Source: Peterkaempfera bronchialis (GTDB taxonomy: Bacteria > Actinomycetota > Actinomycetes > Streptomycetales > Streptomycetaceae). Taken from it: a DNA stretch of 64,000 nt. Below are positions 27,106 to 30,015 of this stretch, piece by piece. A model generated the notes under the pieces. It worked only from the letters and a program-made list of their open reading frames with translations. It was not told the origin of the DNA and searched no databases. The first letter of the stretch is position 1; each line of letters begins with the position of its first letter. Both the position numbers and the translations under genes were made by a program. The stretch is from positions 3,100,001 through 3,164,000 of the forward strand of contig NZ_CP031264.1 of NCBI RefSeq assembly GCF_003258605.2, written 5' to 3'.

Positions 27106-27954
27106 ATGGACGCGCTGGCTCTCGCTCTCACCCCGCACACCCGTACCGACGATCTGCTGGAGTGGTGCGCCGCCCAGGGCCGCGAGGTGGCGGAGCGGCC
27201 ACTGCGCACCGTACTCACCCTGCTGGAGCTGTCCGGTACACCGGTGCACGACGGCTTCCCCGAGCCGACCGCCGCCGACCTCGACCAGCTGCTCCACGAG
27301 CAGCTGCCGATGACCGCCGACACCGAGCCGGACGGGGACCAGGCGTACCTGGACGCGGTGGCCGCGATCATCGACCACCAGCGGGCGGCCAAGCGCCTCA
27401 ACGCCAAGCGGCAGGCCCGGCTCCACGAGGAGCTGGCCGGGTTCGGCGACGGCTTCCGGCTGGCGATGCGGATGCCGGGTCGGCTGACCTGGCCCCGGCT
27501 GTACGCGATGCTGCTCCGCCGGGACGGCGTCGACGGCTCCGACCAGGCCGCTGTGCGGGCCTGGCTGGACGCCTTCCGGCAGCGCGACGCGGACCAGCGG
27601 GCGGCGGCCTGGGCGGACCTCCCGCAGCTGATCACGCCGGAGGAGGAGCACGGCCGCCCGGAGGCGTGGGGCCACACCCGGCTGCTCACCCTCGGCATGG
27701 CGACGGAGAACGCCCGGCTCTTCCTCGGCAACCGCCTGCTGGAGCGGGTCTACCGTTCGCTCACCGCCATGGTCGCCGAGGGCCGGGGGCTGCCTCCGGA
27801 GCTCGGCCGCGATGTGGAGGGCTATGGGCGCCTGGTCGCCGAGGAGGCCGCGCGGCTGCTGGGCGAATGGACCGTCCCGGGCCTGCCCGCCCTGCTGCGC
27901 GCCGACTACCCGGACCTGGCACCCGAGCCGGACCCCGCCGAGATCCCGCGCTGA
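27106..27954 (+). CDS. Hypothetical cytoplasmic protein
   Basis: The 282-residue protein is largely helical, with no signal peptide or membrane segment. Visible features are DDLLEWCAAQGREVAERPLRTVL, a basic stretch QRAAKRLNAKRQARLHEEL, and MPGRLTWPRLYAMLLRR. I do not recognise the family. The ATG at 27106 follows CGGGG, a weak ribosome site. It is divergent from the STAS gene and precedes the 53-bp repeat array. Confidence 0.65.
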   Translation: MDALALALTPHTRTDDLLEWCAAQGREVAERPLRTVLTLLELSGTPVHDGFPEPTAADLDQLLHEQLPMTADTEPDGDQAYLDAVAAIIDHQRAAKRLNAKRQARLHEELAGFGDGFRLAMRMPGRLTWPRLYAMLLRRDGVDGSDQAAVRAWLDAFRQRDADQRAAAWADLPQLITPEEEHGRPEAWGHTRLLTLGMATENARLFLGNRLLERVYRSLTAMVAEGRGLPPELGRDVEGYGRLVAEEAARLLGEWTVPGLPALLRADYPDLAPEPDPAEIPR

Positions 27955-28009
27955 ACGCGGTCTGCTGACTGGGCATCAGGCGGAGTGGCGGGGCGGTCCC
28001 CGTGTGCGC

Positions 28010-28612
28010 ACAGAATCGGGCCGCTTCGCGGAGGATGCGCGGCCGGATGGACCTGTGTGCGCGCAGTGCCCGGCCGTGTCGCGGAGGATGTGTGGCGGGG
28101 TGGGTCCGCGTACGCGCGGTGCCGGGCCGCTTCGCGGAGGATGCGCGGCGGGATGTGAACACAGGGGTCACCCCCGTACCCACAGCGCCCAACCGCGTTC
28201 CGGAGGATGCGCCGCCGGATGGGCCCGTGTGCACGAAGTGCCGGGCAGCGTCGCGGAGGATGCGCCGCAGGGTGGGTCACCGTGCCCGCAGTGCCGGGCC
28301 GCTTCGCGGAGGATGCGCGGCGGGATGTGAACACAGGGGTCACCCCCGTACCCACAGCGCCCAACCGCGTTCCGGAGGATGCGCCGCTGGATGGGTCCGC
28401 GTGCACGAAGTGCCCGGCCGCATCGCCGAGGATGCGCCGCCGGATGGGTCTGCGTGCGCGCAGTGCCAGGCCGCGTCGCGGAGGATGCGTGGCGGGATGG
28501 GTCTGAGCGCGCGGTGCACGGCGGGGTCGCGGAGGATGCGCCGCCGGATGGGTCCGCGTGCGCGCAGTGCCCGGCCGCGTTGCGGAGGGTGTGCGGCGGG
28601 GTGGGTCCGTAT
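28010..28612. repeat. 53-bp tandem repeat array with duplicated 172-bp higher-order unit
   Basis: Eleven copies of a GCGGAGGATGCG-type core recur. The GAGG base positions are 28031, 28084, 28137, 28203, 28256, 28309, 28375, 28428, 28481, 28532 and 28585. Spacing is 53 bp except for two 66-bp units and one of 51. The 66-bp units (28137-28202 and 28309-28374) are identical and carry an extra block containing GAACACAGGGGTCACCCCC. They belong to a 53+53+66 = 172-bp unit present twice. There are no unique spacers, so it is not CRISPR. All three forward frames stay open because the unit is GC-rich, and no convincing protein results. Confidence 0.9.
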
Positions 28613-28689
28613 TGCACCGGAACCCGGGGGAATGCGCGGCCGTTTGCAGAGTCGGAGAAGCAGCAGTGCCGAGATGGAGGAGGAGCGCG

Positions 28690-28992
28690 ATGGCGAAGGT
28701 TCCGACGGCCGTGGTGGCGGCGGGCGGGCTGGTCGGCGGGTATGGCGTGGCCCGGTGGACCAGGAAGCGGCCGCTGGGCGGGGTCGCGCTGGCCGCGGCC
28801 GGTGCGGTGGCGGCCCGGCAGTGGCAGCGGCAGGCGGGTACGGCCGGTGCGGTGGCGCTGACCGGGCTCTATGCGGCGGCGTTCGCCGGCTCGCATCCGC
28901 TGGCGAAGCGGCTCGGCGCGTGGCCCTCGGTCTTCGCCGTCTCCGGTGCGGTGGCGCTGGCCTCGTATGTCGTGGCGGACCGCCGCGCCTGA
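28690..28992 (+). CDS. Small multipass membrane protein
   Basis: The 100-residue product is strongly hydrophobic, with about three membrane segments (VPTAVVAAGGLVGGYGVA; GVALAAAGAVAA; AVALTGLYAAAFAGS then VFAVSGAVALASYVV). No catalytic motif is visible. The ATG at 28690 has GGAGGAG upstream and lies just after the tandem repeat array, which could therefore influence its expression. A perfect 15-bp hairpin follows the stop codon. Confidence 0.65.
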   Translation: MAKVPTAVVAAGGLVGGYGVARWTRKRPLGGVALAAAGAVAARQWQRQAGTAGAVALTGLYAAAFAGSHPLAKRLGAWPSVFAVSGAVALASYVVADRRA

Positions 28993-29023
28993 GCCGGTCC
29001 TGATCCGGTGCGATCCGGGCAGG

Positions 29024-29066
29024 CCGACGGCCCCGGTGTCGGGGGGATGATCACCGGGGCCGTCGG
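29024..29066. terminator. Perfect 15-bp hairpin, bidirectional terminator
   Basis: CCGACGGCCCCGGTG (29024-29038) and its exact complement (29052-29066) flank a 13-base loop. It separates the convergent membrane-protein and M23-peptidase genes. Confidence 0.75.
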
Positions 29067-29097
29067 AGTCGGGAGGGGCAGCGCGGACGCGCGGGTC

Positions 29098-30015
29098 TCA
29101 GACGTCCAGGCCGTGCGACTGGAGCCACGGCCGGGGGTCGATCGGCGCACCGCCGCCGGGCCGGACCTCCAGGTGCAGGTGCGGGCCGGTGACATTGCCG
29201 GTGGCGCCGGAGCGGGCGATGACGTCGCCGGGCTTCACGCCGCCGGAGCCCTGGACGATCGACGACAGGTGGCAGTACCAGATCTCGGTGCCGTCCGGCA
29301 GGGTCTCGATGATGCGGTAGCCGTACGCCCCCGACCAGCCGGCCGAGGTGATCTCACCCATGCCCAGCGCCTTGACGGGGGTTCCGGTGGGGACGGCGAA
29401 GTCCAGGCCGGTGTGCAGGTGCGACCAGTAGGAGCCGGCCTGCCCGAACCCGGCCGTGAGGGTGTAGCCGGAGACCGGGATCGCAAAGGTGCCGAGCAGC
29501 TTGCGCTCCGCCTCGCGGGCGGCGCGCTCCTCGGCCTCCTTCTTCTCCCGGGCCTCCTGGGCCCGCTTGGCGACCAGGTCCTTGGCGGCGGCCTCGGCGG
29601 CGGCCTGCTCCTGGACGGCGCGCTTGGCCTCGGCCTCCCGGGCGGCCTGGAGGCGGGCCGACTCGTCGGCGGCGGTGCGCTGGCTGTCGGCCTGCGCCTG
29701 GATGCGGGCGGCGAGGGCCAGGCCCGGGTCGGTGGCCTCGGCGAAGGCGGTCTCATGGGCCTCGTCGGCGTGCTCGGCCGAGGTGGTGGCGGCGTAGCTG
29801 GTGAAGCCCGTGGTGCCCAGGGTGGCGGCCATCGCGGCGACGCCTATCACCGCCGAGGAGCCCATGTTCCCGCTGCGCTGCTTGGGCAGCCGGTGGCGGC
29901 CACGGTCCGGGTCGCCGCCGAAGGCGGGGACGGGCTCGTGGACGGCGCCCCAGGGCTGCTCGGCGGGCGCGGACAGGGTCGAGGGCATGCCCTCGGTACG
30001 GTACGACGACGCCAC
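29098..30015 (-). CDS. M23-family (LytM) peptidoglycan endopeptidase
   Basis: The 305-residue protein has a cytoplasmic N-terminus, a hydrophobic segment (SSAVIGVAAMAATLGTTGF, about 53-71), a long Ala/Glu/Lys coiled coil (about 95-170) and a C-terminal LytM domain. The domain includes HLHTGLDFAVPTGTPVKA (HxxxD zinc motif), WYCHLSSI and GPHLHLEV (HxH). It is predicted to cleave peptide cross-links in the wall from outside the membrane. The GTG start at 30015 has GGAG upstream. A c-di-AMP riboswitch lies in its leader. Confidence 0.9.
   Translation of the reverse strand: MASSYRTEGMPSTLSAPAEQPWGAVHEPVPAFGGDPDRGRHRLPKQRSGNMGSSAVIGVAAMAATLGTTGFTSYAATTSAEHADEAHETAFAEATDPGLALAARIQAQADSQRTAADESARLQAAREAEAKRAVQEQAAAEAAAKDLVAKRAQEAREKKEAEERAAREAERKLLGTFAIPVSGYTLTAGFGQAGSYWSHLHTGLDFAVPTGTPVKALGMGEITSAGWSGAYGYRIIETLPDGTEIWYCHLSSIVQGSGGVKPGDVIARSGATGNVTGPHLHLEVRPGGGAPIDPRPWLQSHGLDV

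Follow-up and report, generated by a model that had tools for sequence, protein, structure and literature searches.

The 53-bp tandem array in the 64 000-nucleotide stretch of the Peterkaempfera bronchialis genome analysed here (the window, to which coordinates refer unless stated otherwise, at 3,100,001-3,164,000 of a single 7.09-Mb contig) is very probably an intergenic minisatellite that was born from a decayed fragment of a mycothiol-S-transferase (MST) gene and is now neutral. The array occurs once: a search of the 7.09-Mb genome for further copies of the 53-bp unit, which the earlier note had called for, returned the array locus only. It is absent from both sister species (G001 and G002, of the same genus), where an intact MST gene occupies the syntenic position; the orthologue of that gene is missing from the array-bearing genome, and the repeat unit resembles a segment of it. 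If this reading is right, the birth of a minisatellite can be read in a bacterium, in that the parent gene, the segment, its orientation and the site are identifiable by comparison with sister species.

Layout of the array

The features of the locus are collected in Table 1. The eleven cores start at 28028, 28081, 28134, 28200, 28253, 28306, 28372, 28425, 28478, 28529 and 28582, and are spaced in this order by 53, 53, 66, 53, 53, 66, 53, 53, 51 and 53 bp (53 in 7 of 10 cases). The earlier note had described eleven cores at an almost exact 53-bp period between 28010 and 28612: the number of cores stands, as does the end at 28612, but three of the ten spacings differ from 53 and the start is better set at 28019. 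Tandem Repeats Finder called the 53-bp period in three blocks (28019-28155, 28193-28327 and 28365-28609) and, in addition, a period of 172 bp over 28021-28499 (2.8 copies, score 746). The two 66-bp units said to be identical are indeed so, and the 172-bp superunit said to be present twice is also found, the three-unit blocks 28028-28199 and 28200-28371 being 89.5% identical, with an exact match of 97 bp at offset 172. The array copies are mostly 70-90% identical to each other, and GGAGGATG is exact in 9 of the 11 units. The motif is unlikely to be a ribosome-binding site followed by a start, GGAGG and ATG standing there without spacing. As head-to-tail copies of a unit within the 10-100 bp range, the array is a minisatellite.

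Table 1. Features of the array locus (positions in the window)
Feature	Position	Strand	Remarks
Upstream gene	27106..27954	+	adjoins the MST gene in both sister species; 76-77% identity
Low-coordinate edge unit, putative 3' end of the former gene	27998..28048	-	IRPRILREAARFCAHTG
Tandem array, 11 copies of a 53-bp unit	28019..28612	.	two copies at 66 bp, one at 51 bp, last incomplete
Longest exact match at offset 172 (97 bp)	28119..28215	+	= 28291-28387; trace of a multi-unit duplication
First 66-bp unit	28134..28199	+	53-bp unit enlarged by a 13-bp insertion; includes GTGAACACAGGGGTCAC
Unit nearest to the MST segment	28276..28326	-	IPPRILREAARHCGHGD vs ILLHIIRETAHHSGHAD; 38/51 bases identical to sister gene
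Second 66-bp unit	28306..28371	+	identical to 28134-28199
Small membrane-type protein gene	28690..28992	+	first codons and ~75 bp upstream align with G002
M23 peptidase gene	29098..30015	-	next syntenic anchor, kept in both sister species

The unit amounts to 17 codons plus 2 bases; as 53 cannot be divided by three, each successive copy falls in another frame, and the array yields no repeat protein. A protein-coding repeat was rejected on this ground and on the finding that the reading frames of the array match no Pfam family, even at E 10. The long open frames seen in the array probably reflect its G+C content.

The MST gene of the sister species and its resemblance to the unit

Between the shared flanking genes, G001 and G002 have no array and carry instead an intact antisense gene that matches the Pfam MST family (PF04978, also DUF664, of the DinB superfamily) with E-values of 4.9e-39 and 2.2e-37 in the two species. 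The two syntenic genes share 73% identity. The best match that the array-bearing genome offers to them is a paralogue at genome position 3,023,137, 105 kb away, which is only 46% identical, and the array itself contains no open reading frame matching the PF04978 profile. The upstream gene at 27106-27954 has no match in Pfam or NCBIfam. On the other side, the small membrane gene follows the MST gene in G002, where its protein is 95% identical, and alignment with this species places the resumption of the conserved 5' flank directly after the array. A longer form of the membrane protein starting inside the array (ORF 28558-28992) was considered and discarded, sister homology beginning at the ATG at 28690; the earlier statement that a membrane protein starts 78 bp after the array (end 28612, gene start 28690) is correct. 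In G001 the small membrane gene was not detected at the syntenic place (L038, 3573-3931). A c-di-AMP riboswitch (RF00379; 30028-30249, minus strand), scoring 71.6 bits against a gathering score of 38, immediately precedes the M23 peptidase gene.

Read on the minus strand, the unit encodes IPPRILREAARHCGHGD, which aligns with the segment ILLHIIRETAHHSGHAD of a sister MST protein; another unit reads IPPRILRDAAWHCAHAD, and the sister segments include VLLHVLRETAHHCGHAD as well. At the nucleotide level, and in the same register, the consensus unit shares 38 of 53 bases with the MST gene of G001 and 37 of 53 with that of G002. The control consisted of 800 kb of evenly spaced sequence from the same genome plus the window, i.e. 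1.72 million windows when both strands and all rotations are counted, and its maximum for the consensus unit was 36. Compared one at a time, seven of the ten complete units share 34, 34, 35, 35, 36, 37 and 38 of 51 bases with the G001 gene, for a control maximum of 32 of 51. Similarity to MST over the full unit is thus above the genomic background. A 17-residue profile drawn from 26 MST proteins gave 20.8 bits for the best unit, the maximum among 126 406 six-frame control windows being 10.3, and the eight top-scoring windows of the array are eight units, all on the minus strand and in one register. This profile was built only after the MST match had been noticed; the strongest independent points are therefore the position, the orientation and a ranking of 26 MST genes of the family by similarity to the units, in which the two syntenic genes come first and second and the paralogue of the same genome near the bottom. 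When all array frames were compared with 592 genomic reading frames by a generic Smith-Waterman search with BLOSUM62, MST did not stand out; the R/P/A-rich frames of the array score well against many sequences, hence the lack of discrimination.

That this similarity is coincidental, and the array of some other origin, is in our view very improbable. The matched segment is admittedly short (17 codons), and further short exact matches to the unit exist in relatives; but these span 18-34 bases and lie mostly in loci that had been chosen for matching the array, while a match over the full unit is seen in MST genes only, and of the 26 the syntenic pair matches best, with the strand as expected. Of the 130 N-terminal codons of MST, no clear remnant was found. 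Past the last unit, the minus-strand reading PRVPVQYGP (28603-28640) resembles the PRFPWGP that precedes the MST segment in the sister species, and is possibly a further remnant. The earlier note held that no annotated gene explains the repeat; it had missed that the unit is, as judged from these alignments, a fragment of the minus-strand MST gene that is syntenic in the sister species.

Under the MST origin, the ancestor would have carried a minus-strand MST gene (PF04978) flanked by the gene at 27106-27954 and by the membrane gene at 28690, and most of this gene would have been lost. A segment of ~53 bp, from the conserved C-terminal stretch HxxRExAxHxGHAD, would have been tandemly duplicated, and growth to eleven copies may have proceeded by replication slippage or unequal exchange, with one step duplicating a 172-bp block of three units. 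The amplification would either have broken the gene or have come after its loss. The copies would then have drifted apart, and the array is presumably neutral at present.

Possible functions of the array

Three options had been put forward earlier, a binding array, a structured RNA and a VNTR. The VNTR-like, neutral one fits best and phased binding is disfavoured. In the latter, a DNA-binding protein would sit on the cores along one face of the helix, which we consider extremely improbable. Regular spacing and the good conservation of the core columns (CGGAGGATG) are what would be expected of such an array, but the cores do not face the same side as had been supposed: within a 10.5-bp turn they fall at 0, 0.5, 1, 4, 4.5, 5, 8, 8.5, 9, 7.5 and 8 bp, so that most of the turn is covered, the helical phase being lost at the 66- and 51-bp steps. 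Moreover, the core is accounted for as sequence inherited from the MST gene. Nor does the same genome have a second core array, and the pattern of two successive cores was found in none of 394 other family genomes. Among ~85 000 species, represented by one genome each, a similar core pattern matched 3 stretches, none of them the array, and no shared family of core arrays appears. The case calls for caution, as a near-helical period with a conserved core can be the legacy of a gene fragment and is no sure sign of protein binding.

To the second option, a non-coding RNA folded into repeated stem-loops, we give hardly any credence either. Folding of the minus strand is slightly more stable than that of most shuffled sequences (z -1.59, 2 of 20 shuffles being as stable), but the plus strand folds no better than its shuffles (z +1.66, 20 of 20 as stable), so that in the folding check proposed earlier neither strand goes convincingly beyond the 20 shuffles made for each. 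There is no Rfam match inside the array, and in several units a possible CCGC/GCGG hairpin is disrupted by changes that are not compensated.

Another possibility is that the array, irrespective of how it arose, at present adjusts the expression of the downstream membrane gene through its length, as a VNTR placed upstream of a gene could do. The genes on either side of the array run in the same direction, 77 bp separate its end from the start codon, and an upstream tandem-repeat array is reported to act in a length-dependent manner on fpg1 in Mycobacterium tuberculosis (PMC2734929). Such tuning is nevertheless unlikely, given that the conserved 5' flank of the membrane gene is still in place beyond the array and that the orthologue of this gene in G002 has no array. 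No promoter-like or terminator-like sites were found in 27900-29100. Substitutions are unevenly distributed over the columns of the unit (variance test, p 0.003), and mild constraint on the unit is therefore possible; a search for a contiguous block of 22 bases that is significantly spared found none (p 0.18). It is decidedly unlikely that a fragment of the lost enzyme has been co-opted as a non-coding regulatory array, acting on the membrane gene through its length or through a bound protein.

Comparison with known repeats

The array is a bacterial minisatellite, the uncommon feature of which is that a parent gene can be identified. With the intergenic minisatellites and VNTRs of bacteria it shares head-to-tail, non-coding copies with point differences and a larger duplicated block, as well as its presence in one species and absence from the sisters; it differs from them in that its parent can be named, an MST gene fragment at the same locus. 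As compared with the MST genes themselves (PF04978), the unit corresponds, in decayed form, to 17 codons of the conserved C-terminal segment, but the array lacks an intact reading frame and is no longer a gene. Tandem repeats of a constant size of 52 nt, in many arrays per genome and with differing sequences, are known from Firmicutes only (Subirana and Messeguer, PMC8161180). The period of those described in Bacillus, about 52 (51-53), is close to that of the array and is likewise not a multiple of three, but the Firmicutes repeats form several arrays of the same size per genome, whereas in the 864 kb (~12%) of the P. bronchialis genome that were sampled, only one other array with a period of 50-55 was seen, and it has two copies. 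Like the array, the MIRUs are intergenic direct repeats of actinobacteria that occur in tandem; they are, however, dispersed, the H37Rv chromosome having them at about 41 sites (PMC2734929), whereas the 53-bp unit is confined to one.

A mobile, plasmid or phage origin was also considered and set aside: blastn against plasmids and phages gave short, weak matches only, and one 55-bp plasmid match (E 4e-4) does not lie within a repeat. One of the 3 stretches matched by the core pattern belongs to Actinoplanes sp. NBRC 103695 (L082, 4278-4447), where 27-bp units form a 54-bp superunit; this array, with its look-alike core GCGGAGGATGAGCCGC, adjoins a gene end, and both its period and its sequence differ from those of the 53-bp array. 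Long arrays of other periods, intergenic or genic, are present in the 864 kb of the P. bronchialis genome, such arrays therefore not being rare in it. Those outside obvious genes include L101 11010-11482 (157 bp x 3), L087 19720-20000 (68 bp x 4.2) and L090 127-465 (69 bp x 4.9).
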